Assembly: GCA_027486495.1 (NCBI GenBank)
Contig: JAIXOZ010000115.1
Span: forward strand, 1-64,000
Direction of reading: 5' to 3'
DNA: 64,000 bases
Source of the DNA: Comamonadaceae bacterium
GTDB lineage: Bacteria; Pseudomonadota; Gammaproteobacteria; Burkholderiales; Burkholderiaceae_C
This document shows, piece after piece, positions 57,322 to 64,000 of the stretch. A program made the position numbers and the translations under genes. The first letter of the stretch is position 1. Each line of letters starts with the position of its first letter. The notes below the pieces were generated by a model. That model was given only the letters and a program-made list of their open reading frames with translations, was not told the DNA's origin and ran no database searches.

Positions 57322-58191
57322 TCAGCGCGTCAACCAACGCCGCGCCGCAAAGCTCAGCGCATCCACACAAGCCACCATCAGCAGCATGGCTGCCAAAATG
57401 GTGGCCGTCTTGTTCATGTGGAACAGCCCCATGTGGAAGGACAGCAGCTGCCCCAAACCACCCGCGCCCACCACGCCCAACACGGCGGCGGCTCGGATGT
57501 TGTTTTCCCAGCGGTACAGCGTGTAACTCATGAGCTGCGGCAAAACCTGCGGCAAGGTGGCGTAAAAGAACACACGCAGTGGCCCCACACCTTGGGTGCG
57601 CAAGGCGTCGCCGGGACCAGTGGGCACGTTTTCCATCGCCTCGGCAAACAGGCGCCCCAACACGCCGCTGGTGTGCAGCGCCAGCGCCAAGGTGCCCGCC
57701 ATGGGGCCCAAGCCTGCAGAGATCAGCAGCAACGCGGCCCACACCAGTTCAGGAATCGCGCGCAGGGCATTGAGCACCCAGCGCGTGGGGCTGCGCAGCC
57801 AAGCGGGGTCTTGGGCGGACATGCGGCTGGCGGGCACGGCCAGCGCCAGGCCCAGCGCCGCCGCCATGACCGTACCCAATGCGGACATGGCCAGGGTTTC
57901 CCAAGCGGCCCAAGCGACTTTGTCCACAAACACGGGTGAGAGATCGGGCGGGAAAAATTCCGCCACAAAGCGGCCCATGCTGCGCGCTGCTTCCATCGAT
58001 GCAAAGGCGGCCCAATCCAGGTCGAGCGAGACAAAACTGGCCACCACCAACACCAGCAAAGCGGCCGTGAACCAGCAAGCGCGGCAACGCGCATCAAACA
58101 GGGGCGGCGGCAATTTCCAGGGCGGGTTGGCCGCTTCTGGGGCAAAGGCCTGGGCCACAGGCGCGGCGTCGGGTGTCGAGGTGGGCTTCAT
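57322..58191 (-). CDS. phnE: PhnE-type ABC transporter permease (second)
   Basis: A 289-residue permease with six helices and the ABC permease loop (SYTLYRWENNIRAAAVLGVVGAGGLGQLLSFHMGLF), the PhnE signature. The start at 58191 overlaps the stop of the first permease gene as ATGA; a longer frame running to 58962 is a shadow of that gene. With the first permease it forms the membrane channel of a phosphonate/phosphite-type importer. Confidence 0.92.
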   Translation of the reverse strand: MKPTSTPDAAPVAQAFAPEAANPPWKLPPPLFDARCRACWFTAALLVLVVASFVSLDLDWAAFASMEAARSMGRFVAEFFPPDLSPVFVDKVAWAAWETLAMSALGTVMAAALGLALAVPASRMSAQDPAWLRSPTRWVLNALRAIPELVWAALLLISAGLGPMAGTLALALHTSGVLGRLFAEAMENVPTGPGDALRTQGVGPLRVFFYATLPQVLPQLMSYTLYRWENNIRAAAVLGVVGAGGLGQLLSFHMGLFHMNKTATILAAMLLMVACVDALSFAARRWLTR

Positions 58192-59072
58192 GCCAAAGCC
58201 TTTCGCAGCCAGGCGCTCACGCGGTCGGCCAGCGCCACCAGCGCAATGAACACCAACAGCAAGGTGGCCACTTCGCCGCCATTGAACATCTTCATCGAGT
58301 TGTCCAGTTGCTGGCCCAGGCCACCTGCGCCCACAAAGCCCAGCACCACCGAGGAGCGGATAGCACATTCCCATCGGTACACCGTGTAAGACGCCAGCTC
58401 GGCCGCGTGGCTGGGCAGCAACGCATAAACAAAAGCCTGCAGGCGGCCACTGCCGTTGCGCATCAGGGTTTGGGTGGCGTGGCTTTCGCCGCTTTCTAAA
58501 ATCTCGGCGTACACCTTGCCCAGCATGCCGCCATAGGTCAGCGCAATCGCCAGCACGCCCGCCGTGGGGCCCAGGCCCACCACGCGCACAAACACCAGCG
58601 CCCACACCAGCTCGGGCACGCTGCGCAGCACGATCAATGTGGCCCGCACGCACCAACGCACCACAGCAGGCCAGCGGTCCATGCGGCCCGTCAAGGCCGA
58701 GAGCGACAGCACGCGTGTGGCCATCAGGCTCAAGGGCACGGCCAGCACCAGCGCCAGCGTGACACCCGCCGTGGCCATGGCCACAGTGCGCCAGGTTTCG
58801 CGCACCACCATGTTCATGAATTCGGCGTGGTGCACCAGCGGCCAAAAGCTGGCCACAAAGTCGGCCGTGACCTTGCGGTTTTCGGGCGCCCACAACACCC
58901 AGGGGCGGAACTCGGTGGCCACACACAGCGGCCACAGCAGGACCAGCGCCAGGCTCAGCCAAAACACCCGAGACAAAAACGCAGGGTCTCGCGCAGGTGC
59001 AGCCGGGCGCGAACTGGGCGGTGGCAGCCCAGGAGGCTGCACATCGGGCATTCGAGAAACGGTGACTGACAT
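58188..59072 (-). CDS. phnE: PhnE-type ABC transporter permease (first)
   Basis: A 294-residue permease. Its proline-rich N terminus (residues 8-30) precedes the first helix LVLLWPLCVATEF. The coupling loop SYTVYRWECAIRSSVVLGFVGAGGLGQQLDNSMKMFNGGEVATLL matches the PhnE class and the helix before it (RSVPELVWALVFVRVVGLGPTAGVLAIAL) does too. It is similar to the following permease, consistent with a heterodimeric channel made by duplication. Confidence 0.92.
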   Translation of the reverse strand: MSVTVSRMPDVQPPGLPPPSSRPAAPARDPAFLSRVFWLSLALVLLWPLCVATEFRPWVLWAPENRKVTADFVASFWPLVHHAEFMNMVVRETWRTVAMATAGVTLALVLAVPLSLMATRVLSLSALTGRMDRWPAVVRWCVRATLIVLRSVPELVWALVFVRVVGLGPTAGVLAIALTYGGMLGKVYAEILESGESHATQTLMRNGSGRLQAFVYALLPSHAAELASYTVYRWECAIRSSVVLGFVGAGGLGQQLDNSMKMFNGGEVATLLLVFIALVALADRVSAWLRKALA

Positions 59073-59120
59073 GTCGCGTGTATGAAGGGTCAGGGATCTG
59101 AGGTCAGGTCGCAGTCCGCA

Positions 59121-59957
59121 TCAGCGGCAGTGCATCACGGCCGGCGCAGTCGCTGCCGGGGCTGGCTCGTCCACCCTGATCGTCGCTTGGCCGTGCAGCT
59201 CGTGTTCGTGCTGGTCGTAAAGGTGGGCCAGGTGCGCGCGGCTGACTTGTGCTGACGGCAAGTCAAACACCAACTGCCCGTCGCGCAAGCCGACGATGCG
59301 CGGGAAATGCGCCAAAGCCATGTCCACCTGGTGCAAGGTGGCCACCAGCGTCACTTGGCGTTCGGCGGCCAAGCCCACCAAAGCCGTCATGGCCATGCGT
59401 GCGCGCATCGGGTCAAGCGCCGACAGCGGCTCGTCGATCAGCCACAGGCTGGCCGGGGCCAACAAGGCGCGGGCCAAGCCCACGCGCTGACGCTCACCGC
59501 CCGACAAGCGGTCGACCCGCTCGAACAATTTGTCACCCAAATCAAAGTGCGCCAGCGCTTCATAAGCCGCCGGGATGTCGGTGGGGTAAAAAAGTGAGCG
59601 AAGACTCGCCCAAAAACCCAGGACCGGCAATCGCCCAGCCAGCACCGAAGTCACCACACGCTGGCGCGGCGGCAAGGGCGGCACCTGCGGAGCCAAAAAC
59701 AACTGGCCACGCAAACCACGCAAGGCGCCGGGTGATTGCGTCCAGGGGTTCACGCCCGACAACTGCAGCGCGCCCTGGGTGGGCCGCTGCGCGCAAGCCA
59801 ACACCTGCAGCAAGGTCGTCTTGCCTGCGCCCGAGGGGCCGATGATGGCCACCTGCTCGCCAGCAGCCAGTTGCAGGTTCAGGGCACGCAAAGCCGCAGC
59901 CGCACCAGCCAAAGCAGCCGGGTGGCGGGCCTCAAGAGACTGCAGATCGATCTTCAT
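59121..59957 (-). CDS. phnC: PhnC-type ABC transporter ATP-binding protein
   Basis: A 278-residue ATPase with Walker A GPSGAGKTTLLQVL, signature LSGGERQRVGLARALL and Walker B LWLIDEPLSALDP. Its closest class is PhnC, the ATPase of phosphonate/phosphite importers. It lies 18 bases downstream of the binding protein gene and 48 bases before the permeases, giving the order phnD-phnC-phnE-phnE. Confidence 0.92.
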   Translation of the reverse strand: MKIDLQSLEARHPAALAGAAAALRALNLQLAAGEQVAIIGPSGAGKTTLLQVLACAQRPTQGALQLSGVNPWTQSPGALRGLRGQLFLAPQVPPLPPRQRVVTSVLAGRLPVLGFWASLRSLFYPTDIPAAYEALAHFDLGDKLFERVDRLSGGERQRVGLARALLAPASLWLIDEPLSALDPMRARMAMTALVGLAAERQVTLVATLHQVDMALAHFPRIVGLRDGQLVFDLPSAQVSRAHLAHLYDQHEHELHGQATIRVDEPAPAATAPAVMHCR

Positions 59958-59975
59958 GCGTGGAGCGTTATCGGA

Positions 59976-60845
59976 TCAAAGCAAGCCCAGATTGCGCGCG
60001 GCGGCTTCCAGCTCTTTGTAGTTTTCTGGCTTGGTTTCGATATACCGCGTGGCCCGGTTCAGGCGCAGGATTTCAGCGTGCTCGGGGTTGGCCGGGTTCA
60101 AGGCCAATAAGGCCGCCTTGATCTTGTTTTGCAGCACCACAGGCATGTCCGCGTGGACCGACCAGTTGTAGTTGAAGAAGGTGGGCGTGGTGAAAAATAC
60201 ATTCACGGCCTGCGTGTCCACCTTGTTTTCTGCGACAAACTTTTTCCACACCGTGATGTCCAGCGCTGCCGCATCGACCTTGCCGCTGACCACTGAGGCG
60301 ATGGTGGCATCGTGCGCGCCGCTGTAAGCGATGCGTTTGAAGTCTTTTTCAGGGTTGATCCCCGCTTGCACCAGCACGCCTCGGGGCATCGCATGCCCAG
60401 AGGTGCTGCTGGCAGAACCAAATGAGACTTGCTTGCCCTTCATGTCGGCCAGCGTCTTGATGCCTGAATCGGTTTTGGCGATGAACACCGACTGGAACCG
60501 CGTATCCTCTTCGCGCTGCGCCAAGGGCACGACTTTGTCACCCGAGCGGAGTTTGGCCTGAACGTACGTGAAGCCACCAAACCAGACCAAATCGACCTTT
60601 TTGTTCACCATCGACTCCACGGCCGCGGGGTAATCGGTCACAGGCGTGAACACCACCTTCATTCCCAACTGCTTTTCCAGGTAATTGGCCAGCGGGGTGA
60701 ATTTGCGCACCTGCTCGGTGGCCGCTTCTTCGGGGATGGTGGTCACCCGCAGCGTGGTTTGGGCTTGGGCTGCGCTCATGAGCGACAAGCCCAGCAAAGC
60801 AGCACAGGCCGAGGACATGATTTTGGAGAAGAAGGCGTGGGTCAT
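59976..60845 (-). CDS. phnD: PhnD-type substrate-binding protein
   Basis: A 289-residue exported binding protein (signal peptide up to about residue 28, AAQAQ). The oxyanion-binding loop of the PhnD class appears as SFGSASSTSGHAMPRGVLVQAG, with YPAAVESMVNKKVDLVWFGGFTYVQA and YSGAHDATIASVVSGKVDAAALD framing the pocket. Class members bind phosphonates, phosphite or similar oxyanions. No C-P lyase or phosphonatase gene is in the window; the neighbours are egtD and senA/senB, so a selenium oxyanion or other ligand should be considered. Confidence 0.9.
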   Translation of the reverse strand: MTHAFFSKIMSSACAALLGLSLMSAAQAQTTLRVTTIPEEAATEQVRKFTPLANYLEKQLGMKVVFTPVTDYPAAVESMVNKKVDLVWFGGFTYVQAKLRSGDKVVPLAQREEDTRFQSVFIAKTDSGIKTLADMKGKQVSFGSASSTSGHAMPRGVLVQAGINPEKDFKRIAYSGAHDATIASVVSGKVDAAALDITVWKKFVAENKVDTQAVNVFFTTPTFFNYNWSVHADMPVVLQNKIKAALLALNPANPEHAEILRLNRATRYIETKPENYKELEAAARNLGLL

Positions 60846-60960
60846 GTTGGCTTTTCTAAAATGGAACTTTCAAGATTACACACTGAAATCCTTGCACCCC
60901 GCGCTGCAGGGGCCAAACCTGCAAGGTCCTGTAGTTTGAGCATTGGCTTACTATCCTTTC

Positions 60961-61929
60961 ATGAACATCCCCCAATTCATCCAGCTGTACCAGCACAACG
61001 CCAGCGCTGTAGCACACGAGCTTTTGCAAGGCCTGAGCGCCCCGCAGGCCTTCACCTCCCCCAAATACCTTTACGACACACTGGGCTCGCGCCTGTTTGA
61101 GGCCATTACTGAACTGCCCGAGTACGACCTGACACGTACCGAGGCGCAACTCATGCGCTTGCACAGCGCCGACATGATCCGACATGTGCCCACAAACGCT
61201 TGCTGGATCGACCTGGGCGCGGGCAACTGCGAAAAAGCCGGGCGACTGTTGGGCCCCCTGAAAGCCGAACGCTATGTGGCGGTGGACATTTCGGTGGACT
61301 TTGTACGTCAAGCCCTGGGCAGCCTGCAGCACCAGCACCCTGGCCTGGCCATGGTGGGCCTGGGCACCGACTTCTCGGGTGGTCTGGATTTGCCAGATGT
61401 GTTGGGCCTTAACCCTGCACAAGCGCGCGTGTTGTTTTATCCGGGCTCAAGCATCGGCAACTTCACGCCCGATCAAGCCTTGGACTTTTTGCAAAGCCTG
61501 CACCGCGCTTGCGGTACGGCCATGGGCAGTGGTTTGCTGATCGGGGTGGATTTGGTCAAGGACGCGGCCGAGTTGGAAGCGGCCTACGATGACGCATTGG
61601 GCGTCACCGCCGCTTTTGACCTGAACTTGCTGCTGCACATCAACCGCTTGGTGGGCAGCGACTTTGCGCTGCGCGACTGGCGCCATTTGTCGCGCTTCAA
61701 CGCACTGGAATCGCGCGTGGAGATGCACCTGCAGGCACGCCACGCGGTCACCGTGCAATGGCCAAGCGGCGTGCGGCTTTTTGCTGCAGGCGAGACCATC
61801 CACACTGAAAATGCATACAAATGGACGGTGCCTAACTTTGAAGCCTTGCTCCACTCGGCAGGCTTTACCCAAACCCGCGTCTGGACAGATAGGGCCCAGC
61901 GCTTTGCAGTCTTTTGGGCCACGGCCTGA
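60961..61929 (+). CDS. egtD: L-histidine N-alpha-methyltransferase
   Basis: A 322-residue SAM-dependent enzyme that trimethylates histidine to hercynine, the precursor of ergothioneine and selenoneine. Conserved segments are SPKYLYDTLGSRLFEAITELPEYDLTRTEA, the SAM motif WIDLGAGNCEKAGRLL and YPGSSIGNFTPDQALDFL, plus the substrate-binding region TAAFDLNLLLHINRLVGSDF. The ATG at 60961 is preferred; an upstream start at 60943 adds six residues. It faces senA and converges on it with a 49-base gap. Confidence 0.95.
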   Translation: MNIPQFIQLYQHNASAVAHELLQGLSAPQAFTSPKYLYDTLGSRLFEAITELPEYDLTRTEAQLMRLHSADMIRHVPTNACWIDLGAGNCEKAGRLLGPLKAERYVAVDISVDFVRQALGSLQHQHPGLAMVGLGTDFSGGLDLPDVLGLNPAQARVLFYPGSSIGNFTPDQALDFLQSLHRACGTAMGSGLLIGVDLVKDAAELEAAYDDALGVTAAFDLNLLLHINRLVGSDFALRDWRHLSRFNALESRVEMHLQARHAVTVQWPSGVRLFAAGETIHTENAYKWTVPNFEALLHSAGFTQTRVWTDRAQRFAVFWATA

Positions 61930-61978
61930 TGAGGCAGTGCTTGGCGTGGTCAGGGATGTCTCTTTCGCCGACAAACTG

Positions 61979-63157
61979 CTAAAGCGACACTGACCGGAAA
62001 CCCGCAAAAATATCGCGCCGCTGGGGCACAAAGAAGTTGCGATACCGCACATCCACCACATGCGCCGAGGTCGCAGCGCAGGCCCCACGCAGCACGCGGT
62101 GGTGGTACCACCAAGGCTCTGAATAATCGCGGTAGGGATGCGCCTCAAAACCCGGATAAGGCGCAAAGTCGCTGGCCGTCCACTCCCAGACTTGGCCCCA
62201 CGCAAAGCCGAGCTGCTGCGCCGCGCACGCCCATTCGGCCTCTGTGGGCAAGCGCCTGTTAGCCCATTGGCACCAAGCCTGGGCATCGAGCGCATTCAGG
62301 TGCACCGCCGGGGCCTGCAGATCCAGCGCCTTCCATTGACCAAAACGCTGCGCTTGCCACACCCCTTGCGAACATCGCACATGTGGGGGCAAAGCGTGGC
62401 CGGTGGCATTTACAAAAGGCAGGTAACGCGCCCAGGTCACGGCGGCTGCATCGATCTCGAAGGCGGCCAGCACCTGCGGATGGGCCTGCCTCTCGTTGTC
62501 AAAAACGAAGCCTGGCCCCTGATGCCCCAGCGTGTAAGCCTGCTCAGGCAACAAGATGCCCCCGGAGCAACCCACGGGCTTTTCTTGCGCAACTGCAGCC
62601 CCGCTCGCGGGCTCACGCCAGCACAAGGCAGGCGGCAGCTCCAAGCCCAGGTCTTGGGCCATGTAGACCGCAGCTTCGTTGTGCATGTCTTCGTGCTGCA
62701 GCACCAAGCGCCAAAAATACAGGTGTTCGTCGCTCTCACCCTGACCGTCAGCCTCGACCGCTTGCAGCTGCTCCAGGCTGCGCTCTAAAACCTGCGCCAA
62801 ATAGGCTTGTGTTCCGGCCAAATTGGGCAAAGGCAGCGCCCAGCGGCTGTCGTGCGCGACTTCGCTGGAGTTGTAGAGCGCATCGGCATCGGGCAACAGC
62901 GAGGCGTCAAAGTCAGCGCCGCTGCTGGCACTGCGGGTGCCCAGGTGGCGCTGGCGGTTGCGCACCGTCCACCACTCCTGAAACCAGGCGATATGGCCCC
63001 ACTCCCAAAGCGGTGGGTTCATGCCCGGCAAGGGCGGCACCGACAGATCGGGCATGGCGTTTTGCCAGGCCTGCATCAAGCCCAAGGTGCGCTTGCGGGT
63101 GCGTTGCAAGGCCTGGGCCAATTGCGCCGCACTGGCCGTGCGCGCAGCGCTGTGCAC
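61979..63157 (-). CDS. senA: Selenoneine synthase (EgtB-like non-heme iron enzyme)
   Basis: An EgtB-type protein of about 392 residues: N-terminal DinB-like domain with iron ligands H55 (WEWGHIAWFQEWW), H155 and H159 (LQHEDMH), then a C-terminal FGE-sulfatase domain (LPTEAEWACAAQQLG, WEWTASDFAPYPGFE, RVLRGACAAT, YRNFFVPQRRDIFAGFRSV). EgtB makes the ergothioneine sulfoxide; the adjacent SenB-type gene and egtD point to the SenA branch, which joins a selenosugar to hercynine. Start is uncertain: GTG 63157 gives the usual N-terminal length, while ATG 63289 would add 44 residues and leave 13 bases to senB. Confidence 0.82.
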   Translation of the reverse strand: MHSAARTASAAQLAQALQRTRKRTLGLMQAWQNAMPDLSVPPLPGMNPPLWEWGHIAWFQEWWTVRNRQRHLGTRSASSGADFDASLLPDADALYNSSEVAHDSRWALPLPNLAGTQAYLAQVLERSLEQLQAVEADGQGESDEHLYFWRLVLQHEDMHNEAAVYMAQDLGLELPPALCWREPASGAAVAQEKPVGCSGGILLPEQAYTLGHQGPGFVFDNERQAHPQVLAAFEIDAAAVTWARYLPFVNATGHALPPHVRCSQGVWQAQRFGQWKALDLQAPAVHLNALDAQAWCQWANRRLPTEAEWACAAQQLGFAWGQVWEWTASDFAPYPGFEAHPYRDYSEPWWYHHRVLRGACAATSAHVVDVRYRNFFVPQRRDIFAGFRSVSL

Positions 63158-63302
63158 AGGCCCCAGGCAGCCAACAAAAGCTCTGTCAAACACGCCCCCC
63201 GAAGAAGGGCCCAAAAAAACACTTGAAAACACGCTCAAAGATGGGCTTGGGGTAGCCTGCCTTGCCCCCGCCGAAGTACTGCCATTCATGTATAAACCGT
63301 CC

Positions 63303-64000
63303 ATGCAAAAACTTCGTGTAGTGATTGTCAGCCCTGCCTTGGCCGACGCCAACAACGGCAACTGGCAAACGGCGCGCCGCTGGAAACAGCTGTTGTCTGC
63401 GCATTCTGCCCGCATCGTGCGCCAATGGCCGGATGCATCGGCCGACCAAGACGATGTGATGCTGGCCCTGCATGCGCGGCGCTCGGCCTGTGCGGTACAA
63501 GCTTGGCATGATCGGCACGGCCAGCGCGGCCTTGGCGTCGTGCTGACGGGCACCGACTTATACCGCGACATCGCTCACGACCCACAGGCGCAACGCTCCT
63601 TGGCCCAGGCACATTCGCTGGTGGTGTTGCAAGGGCTGGGTGTGCAAAGCCTGCCCAGCGAGCACCAAGCCAAGGCCCGCGTGATCTTTCAGTCGACCGG
63701 TACGCGCCAAACCCTGCGCAAAACCACGCGCCACCTGCGCGTGGTGATGGTGGGCCACTTGCGCGACGAAAAAGACCCCCTGACCTTGATGGCCGCCGCC
63801 CGCTTGCTGCCCCCTGCCAGCGGCATCTTGATCGACCACATTGGTGCACCACTCGATGCCACACTGGGCCAGGCCGCACAGGCCACGCAGGCGCAGTGCC
63901 CACATTACCGCTGGCTGGGGGCATTACCCCACCGCCAGACGCTGCAGCATATCCAGCGCGCCCACCTGCTGGTGCACTGCAGCCGCATGGAAGGCGGCGC
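63303..64000 (+). CDS. senB: Selenosugar synthase SenB-like glycosyltransferase (partial, cut by window end)
   Basis: The first 232 codons of a GT4-type glycosyltransferase: MQKLRVVIVSPALADANNGN, WQTARRWKQLL, ADQDDVMLALHARRSACAVQ, LGVVLTGTDLYRDIAHDP, HLRVVMVGHLRDEKDPLTLM and HLLVHCSRMEGG, the last being the nucleotide-sugar site. This is the pattern of SenB proteins, which build a selenosugar from selenophosphate and UDP-N-acetylglucosamine. Divergent from senA. senC (a selD-type gene) would be expected beyond the window. Confidence 0.85.
   Translation, partial: MQKLRVVIVSPALADANNGNWQTARRWKQLLSAHSARIVRQWPDASADQDDVMLALHARRSACAVQAWHDRHGQRGLGVVLTGTDLYRDIAHDPQAQRSLAQAHSLVVLQGLGVQSLPSEHQAKARVIFQSTGTRQTLRKTTRHLRVVMVGHLRDEKDPLTLMAAARLLPPASGILIDHIGAPLDATLGQAAQATQAQCPHYRWLGALPHRQTLQHIQRAHLLVHCSRMEGG

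Follow-up and report, generated by a model that had tools for sequence, protein, structure and literature searches.

The window analysed here is a stretch of 64,000 nucleotides from a Comamonadaceae bacterium (assembly GCA_027486495.1, contig JAIXOZ010000115.1, positions 1 to 64,000 of the forward strand); the contig extends beyond it to 76,073 base pairs (bp). Near its right end, four genes encoding an ATP-binding cassette (ABC) importer adjoin genes of selenoneine synthesis. The four genes probably encode a high-affinity system that imports a selenium oxyanion and would feed the selenophosphate pathway; selenite (HSeO3-/SeO3 2-) is the most likely cargo. The assignment to a selenium oxyanion is well supported by the genomic context. 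We show the gene content, the family membership, the recurrent linkage and co-occurrence with selenium genes and the conserved pocket residues, and infer the cargo, the supply route and the preference for selenite over selenate. The importer is thus a strong candidate for a dedicated bacterial selenium uptake system. What appears to be new is the tie between an ABC oxyanion importer of an already named family and the selenoneine pathway.

Gene content of the locus

The importer (57322-60845, minus strand) consists of four open co-directional genes of normal length. The gene of the PhnD-type receptor (59976..60845) is followed by those of a PhnC-type ATPase (59121..59957, 278 amino acids (aa)) and two PhnE-type permeases, permease 1 (58188..59072, 294 aa) and permease 2 (57322..58191, 289 aa). 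Both permeases contain PF00528; permease 2 exceeds the TIGR01097 cut-off (260.6 against 216.7 bits) and permease 1 falls slightly below it (201.3 bits). The ATPase contains PF00005, scores below the PhnC cut-off (TIGR02315, 186.4 against 266.1 bits), and by eye retains the Walker A, signature and Walker B motifs. A region of 115 bp between start codons (60846..60960, no strand) separates the importer from the divergently transcribed egtD. An earlier note on this DNA had reported both the intact importer next to egtD and the joint occurrence of egtD, senA and senB, and this is confirmed here.

The egtD gene (60961..61929, plus strand, ATG at 60961) encodes the L-histidine N-alpha-methyltransferase of hercynine synthesis (TIGR03438, 335.1 against 290.9 bits), the sole PF10017 match in the genome. 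The selenoneine synthase gene senA lies on the minus strand (61979..63157, with a presumed GTG start at 63157; NF041186, 450.7 against 420 bits). The selenosugar synthase gene senB (plus strand) starts at 63303, passes the end of the window at 64000 and continues to C110:64277; the whole gene scores 420.9 and the part inside the window alone 306.5 bits with TIGR04348 (cut-off 300). Directly after senB, beyond the window, starts a plus-strand gene (C110:64278-66644, or L002:7279-9645) encoding a 788-aa fusion of a pyridine-nucleotide-disulfide oxidoreductase (TIGR03169, 495.5 against 310 bits) with the selenophosphate synthetase SelD (TIGR00476, 299.8 against 125 bits). This fusion is the only SelD match in the genome. 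SenA, SenB and SelD/SenC, the set required for a sen cluster, thus all exceed their cut-offs. SelU is also present in the genome, and no SelA match was found there. The fused gene is followed on the opposite strand by a gene recognised by eye as katG-like. Inspection by eye of both divergent intergenic regions in the window, and of the sequence upstream of the receptor gene in ten relatives, showed no common regulator site.

The receptor had been taken for PhnD in the earlier note. This name has to be replaced: the protein fails the PhnD model (TIGR03431, 175.5 against 261.1 bits) and passes the cut-off of TIGR04553 (344.5 against 250 bits). NCBIfam already calls the latter family a 'putative selenate' receptor, with the status of hypothetical equivalog, and thus a curator suspected selenium and the idea is already on file. 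Two other receptors are found elsewhere in the same genome: that of a true PhnD system (L216, 316.2 against 261.1 bits) and one belonging to the wider family (L215). The role of classical phosphorus import may therefore fall to these other genes. The earlier note had also seen no phosphonate-degrading gene nearby; this can be extended for the carbon-phosphorus lyase PhnJ, a usual although not strictly defining partner of PhnD, which has no match in the whole draft genome (95.4% complete; the E. coli control was positive), in a search that did not cover other phosphonate enzymes and PtxD. Phosphonate import by a PhnD protein, one of the cargoes considered in that note, was rejected on the model score and the lack of a PhnJ match.

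Co-occurrence and linkage with selenium genes

We surveyed 399 genomes of the order with family cut-offs applied; all co-occurrence and position statistics given below ignore kinship. TIGR04553 was found above cut-off in 92 genomes, SenA in 89 and SelD in 285. At the threshold used, SelU was found in 284 genomes (281 above cut-off) and SelA in 108 (107 above cut-off). Of the 92 genomes with TIGR04553, 86 contain SelD, as against 199 of the 307 others (Fisher p 7e-9), and 43 contain SenA, as against 46 of the 307 (p 1e-9). Six genomes with TIGR04553 lack SelD (G002, G198, G170, G159, G195, G205). One of them, G002, contains SelA, SelU and SenA, so that the lack of SelD is probably a gap in the draft. 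SelU is found in G198, and in G170 a SenA match misses the cut-off by one bit.

The regions of about 9 kilobases (kb) on each side of all 92 TIGR04553 genes were examined, some of them cut by contig ends. At least one of selD, senA, senB and egtD was found within 9 kb at 23 of these loci. A tblastn recount of the 23 gave selD at 22, egtD at 18, senB at 18 and a SenA/EgtB-family gene at 17. At six loci (L050, L052, L053, L054, L072, L074) egtD is flanked by a gene that shares only 25-29% identity with SenA of the window and may be EgtB; hence BLAST counts of SenA refer to the SenA/EgtB family. The 22 loci with selD within about 9 kb compare with approximately 0.4 expected from position alone. 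TIGR04553 occurs in 24 family groups, and the linked loci come from 10 of them; the linkage label requires nine changes on the tree of the 92 receptors.

The gene order at the linked loci varies. The receptor is divergent from egtD in the window, L043, L055 and L132, and the importer lies upstream of egtD in the same direction in L130, L145 and L165. In L088 and L084 the importer is embedded in a one-direction run encoding a SenA-family protein, SelD, the receptor, the ATPase, two permeases and EgtD, and in L180 it heads a one-direction run with another gene order. SelD is followed by the receptor in L066 and L067. In L068, L092 and L186, SelD is divergent from the receptor, and no senA, senB or egtD was found in those stretches.

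The recurrence of the linkage in different gene orders argues for a shared function. The main rival explanation is that the system imports phosphite or phosphate, like the picocyanobacterial PhnD1, and that its place near selenium genes reflects genomic habit and not function. The linkage with selD and sen genes recurs in several gene orders, some with the importer inside a sen run, and in 10 family groups. This recurrence and the enrichment of SelD in genomes with TIGR04553 speak against the rival explanation, as do the other PhnD-type systems kept by the genome of the window. At the loci that lack selenium genes, we also scanned 86 of the 127 nearest neighbours, look-alikes among the 127 having been removed by eye. 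No Pfam family occurs in more than 6 of the 86, and the 25 Pfam families shown (of 72) include none for phosphorus oxidation.

The same 25 families include no arsenic or sulfite family, which bears on the import of another oxyanion such as sulfite, arsenite or arsenate. The arsenate receptor ArrX and the arsenite receptor AioX do have the same fold, but they are 19-25% identical and score far lower, and an importer of this kind seems improbable.

Among the SenA-family genes, those found next to SenB and SelD in L084, L088 and L132 score 372-397 bits, below the NF041186 cut-off of 420. The model may therefore miss divergent selenoneine synthases.

The relatives of the window were considered separately. 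A profile of 34 receptors, with the sequence of the window first, retrieved 80 named loci, the nearest of them from Limnohabitans (receptor identity 86-88%). At least one of the sen, egtD and selD genes was found in 47 of the 80 and at least two in 38. Such genes lie within about 10 kb at 35 of the first 40 loci listed as against 12 of the last 40. When only the 38 named loci with at least 20 kb of DNA are counted, 22 carry at least one of the selenium genes. The link between the importer and selenium genes is thus strong in relatives of the window and patchy elsewhere. The earlier note had suggested a survey of this adjacency and would have taken its absence from related genomes with sen genes as a refutation. 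The outcome favours the note among near relatives and in several other family groups, but the adjacency is not universal.

Two further observations concern individual loci. In one Limnohabitans (L134:5789-9904) approximately 4 kb separate the divergent egtD and importer, and the last gene there appears by eye to be similar to ABC ATPases. Seven loci (L141, L150, L178, L184, L194, L201, L206) come from metagenome bins labelled Akkermansia, Singulisphaera, Thermoflexus and Bordetella parapertussis; their receptors are 70-84% identical to that of the window, and these organism labels look wrong.

Receptor structure and the candidate ligand

The AlphaFold2 model of the receptor is confident (predicted local distance difference test, pLDDT, 93.7). 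Among solved structures, its fold is closest to that of PhnD1 from Synechococcus and Prochlorococcus (7S6G and 5LQ5, TM-score 0.90-0.92). Both proteins themselves exceed the TIGR04553 cut-off of 250 bits (338 and 301.6 bits, respectively), and thus the PhnD1 literature already describes two members of the family, although the family name is absent from the parts of these papers available to us (PMC10284923, PMC5700983). In the receptor of the window, 8 of the 11 PhnD1 pocket residues named in PMC10284923 are identical in the profile alignment: the Tyr, the Ser-Thr-Ser, the His, the capping Tyr and the water-binding Thr and Ser. The core of the phosphite-type site of PhnD1 and PtxB (Y42, S117-T118-S119, H148, Y196) is present in full.

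The differing positions are those of both cap partners and of the Asp that faces the ligand; they are E9/D166/N195 in the mature receptor of the window and D11/N174/D203 in 7S6G. The D/N/D set is found in 54 of the 92 members and the E/D/N set in 34, including the clade of the window, the remaining 4 being mixed or unread (PhnD1 rows not counted); in the alignment of 34 members, D/N/D occurs in 21. The transition from D/N/D to E/D/N is a coupled change at positions 9, 166 and 195 and takes one step on the receptor tree. The pocket subtype was rejected as a marker of selenium linkage, since both types are linked. The placement of PhnD1 in this tree was not used, as long branches meet there. The pocket motif of the lowest-scoring member (L133:9001-9774 in G205, 282 bits) is altered, with Ala-Ala replacing Thr-Ser. 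No SelD match was found in the genome of this member, which probably has another ligand.

The conserved pocket suggests a small three-oxygen anion as the ligand. Selenite, which is pyramidal and has three oxygens, occurs mainly as HSeO3- near neutral pH and in this way resembles phosphite. Selenate carries four oxygens and no proton. The preference for selenite over selenate as the cargo is based on the stronger binding of phosphite than of four-oxygen phosphate by PhnD1 and PtxB. The reported dissociation constants of PhnD1 are 0.05-4.3 uM for phosphite and 7-182 uM for phosphate (PMC10284923, Table 1; PMC5700983), and for the tabled PhnD1 and PtxB proteins we computed from the constants in these papers that phosphite is bound 6- to about 3,600-fold more tightly.

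Import of selenate (SeO4 2-), a common form of selenium, is suggested by the curated name of the family. Apart from the preference of PhnD1 and PtxB for three-oxygen phosphite, the Tyr cap limits the fourth position, and the ligand-facing Asp of most members would suit a protonated oxygen, whereas selenate is unprotonated at neutral pH. These points are not decisive, since 7S6G holds phosphate and the receptor of the window has Asn at the ligand-facing position. On balance we regard a selenate importer as rather unlikely.

Another explanation is the uptake of external selenoneine, hercynine, ergothioneine or selenosugar, for which only the closeness to egtD, senA and senB speaks. The conserved residues form a small capped oxyanion site and not a site for an amino-acid betaine or a sugar. 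Indeed, the Tyr-capped site of PhnD1 is described as excluding bulky ligands, in contrast to the larger pocket of E. coli PhnD (PMC5700983, PMC10284923). Moreover, the family also occurs next to selD at the three loci mentioned above where no senA, senB or egtD was found. Uptake of selenoneine or of a selenosugar product, both raised in the earlier note, was therefore rejected on the type of pocket, and the explanation as a whole is very improbable. From the cargoes listed in that note, the selenium oxyanion emerges as the best supported and phosphite is retained as the rival.

Several observations weigh against a selenium cargo. The members of TIGR04553 for which binding has been reported, that is, the PhnD1 proteins closest to our receptor among solved structures, bind phosphite and phosphate (PMC10284923, PMC5700983). 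First-shell residues are largely common to PhnD1 and the receptor of the window and do not separate a selenium site from a phosphorus site; as known phosphorus-anion binders have much the same residues, sequence alone is compatible with phosphite. In the open-access literature we found no TIGR04553 protein that had been tested with a selenium ligand. In Pseudomonas putida, a receptor annotated as 'phosphonate/selenate' increases about three-fold without phosphate, from 0.31 to 0.96% of the exoproteome (PMC9426549). In the same study, PstS rises five- to eight-fold without phosphate, and in plant-pot samples the annotated receptor is found at 0.27% with PstS near zero. In our survey, selenium genes within 9 kb were lacking at 69 of the 92 loci. 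Among the 89 genomes with SenA above cut-off, only 6 (G000, G003, G049, G323, G354, G381) carry TIGR04553 on the contig of SenA and no more than 20 kb away from it, and 43 of the 89 have it anywhere in the genome; many contigs are short. Finally, G159 and G195, which belong to one family group, and the outlier G205 have TIGR04553 and lack SelD, SelA, SelU and SenA above the cut-off.

On the other side, the phnD1-phnC1-phnE1 system is reported in all 97 picocyanobacteria of one database, and the available part of that paper does not report induction of PhnD1 by phosphorus starvation (PMC10284923). Strains with PhnD1 alone, including Prochlorococcus without a second system and its enzymes, cannot use phosphite, a situation called paradoxical by the authors, who consider the binding fortuitous (PMC10284923). 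Taken together with the linkage data, the failure of such strains to use phosphite makes a phosphite or phosphate importer unlikely, even if it is the strongest of the alternatives.

Predicted supply route

If the importer carries selenite, the following route can be suggested. The periplasmic receptor would clamp the three-oxygen anion by the Tyr, Ser-Thr-Ser and His of the PhnD1-type pocket, with the second Tyr as a cap above it. The two permeases and the ATPase would then carry the anion into the cell, where cell reductants may convert selenite to selenide. The fused oxidoreductase-SelD protein would make selenophosphate and SenB the selenosugar, which SenA would join to the hercynine made by EgtD, yielding selenoneine. 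SelU would draw on the same pool of selenophosphate.

Comparison with known systems

The gene types and the fold are similar to those of the phosphonate importer PhnCDE of E. coli. Unlike that system, the receptor of the window falls below the PhnD cut-off and the genome has no PhnJ match; the pocket of E. coli PhnD is also larger. With the sen cluster of Variovorax paradoxus the locus has in common senA, senB and selD, with egtD next to these genes; it differs in the additional importer and in the fusion of SelD to an oxidoreductase. A short summary of the original selenoneine paper (Nature 2022) mentions no transporter (PMC9814287).

Transport of selenium has been discussed in other contexts. 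A 2008 note guessed that a phosphate-transporter subunit encoded near archaeal selD carries selenate (PMC2276186). YedE, SaoX/SaoB and candidates from methanogens are earlier selenium or selenium-linked transport candidates (PMC5322559, PMC13188914, PMC11097638); in the available text they are named as families other than TIGR04553, and none is shown there to be a specific selenium importer. A 2026 review states that prokaryotes have no identified specific high-affinity selenium transport system (PMC13188914), and in a 2024 study a specific selenium transporter is likewise described as not known (PMC11097638). The receptor of the window is a member of the family with the 'putative selenate' label, which names selenate, whereas selenite is proposed here. 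In a 2026 paper, a 'putative selenate ABC' annotation is mentioned and interpreted as export or efflux. In a search of mainly open-access literature, with subscription literature mostly outside it, no paper was found that links TIGR04553 to selenoneine or tests it with selenium. The view of the earlier note that dedicated selenium uptake would be new has to be qualified in that the name of the family already contained the idea.

Among the close known systems, PhnD1 belongs by model score to the same family and shares most pocket residues with the receptor of the window. It is described as a phosphite binder or as a medium-affinity phosphate importer next to tesA (PMC10284923). The word stem 'selen' is absent from the main text of that paper, which contains no link to selenium. 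An older paper reports an NADH-dehydrogenase-like extension on the SelD of Prochlorococcus marinus and of a Synechococcus, and counts cyanobacteria among the carriers of ybbB, which encodes SelU (PMC1273633). A fusion of this type is also found next to senB of the window. One possibility, which we put forward tentatively, is that bacteria have their specific high-affinity selenite uptake system in the TIGR04553 importers, which would be part of selenoneine runs in Burkholderiales and, as phnD1-phnC1-phnE1, serve selenium use in picocyanobacteria. Mimicry of selenite by phosphite would then explain why PhnD1 binds phosphite in cells unable to use it. The comparison singles out a named protein family, with structures already solved, as the candidate selenium importer. 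It would connect uptake with a known selenium product and suggests a solution to the published PhnD1 paradox of abundant marine cyanobacteria.

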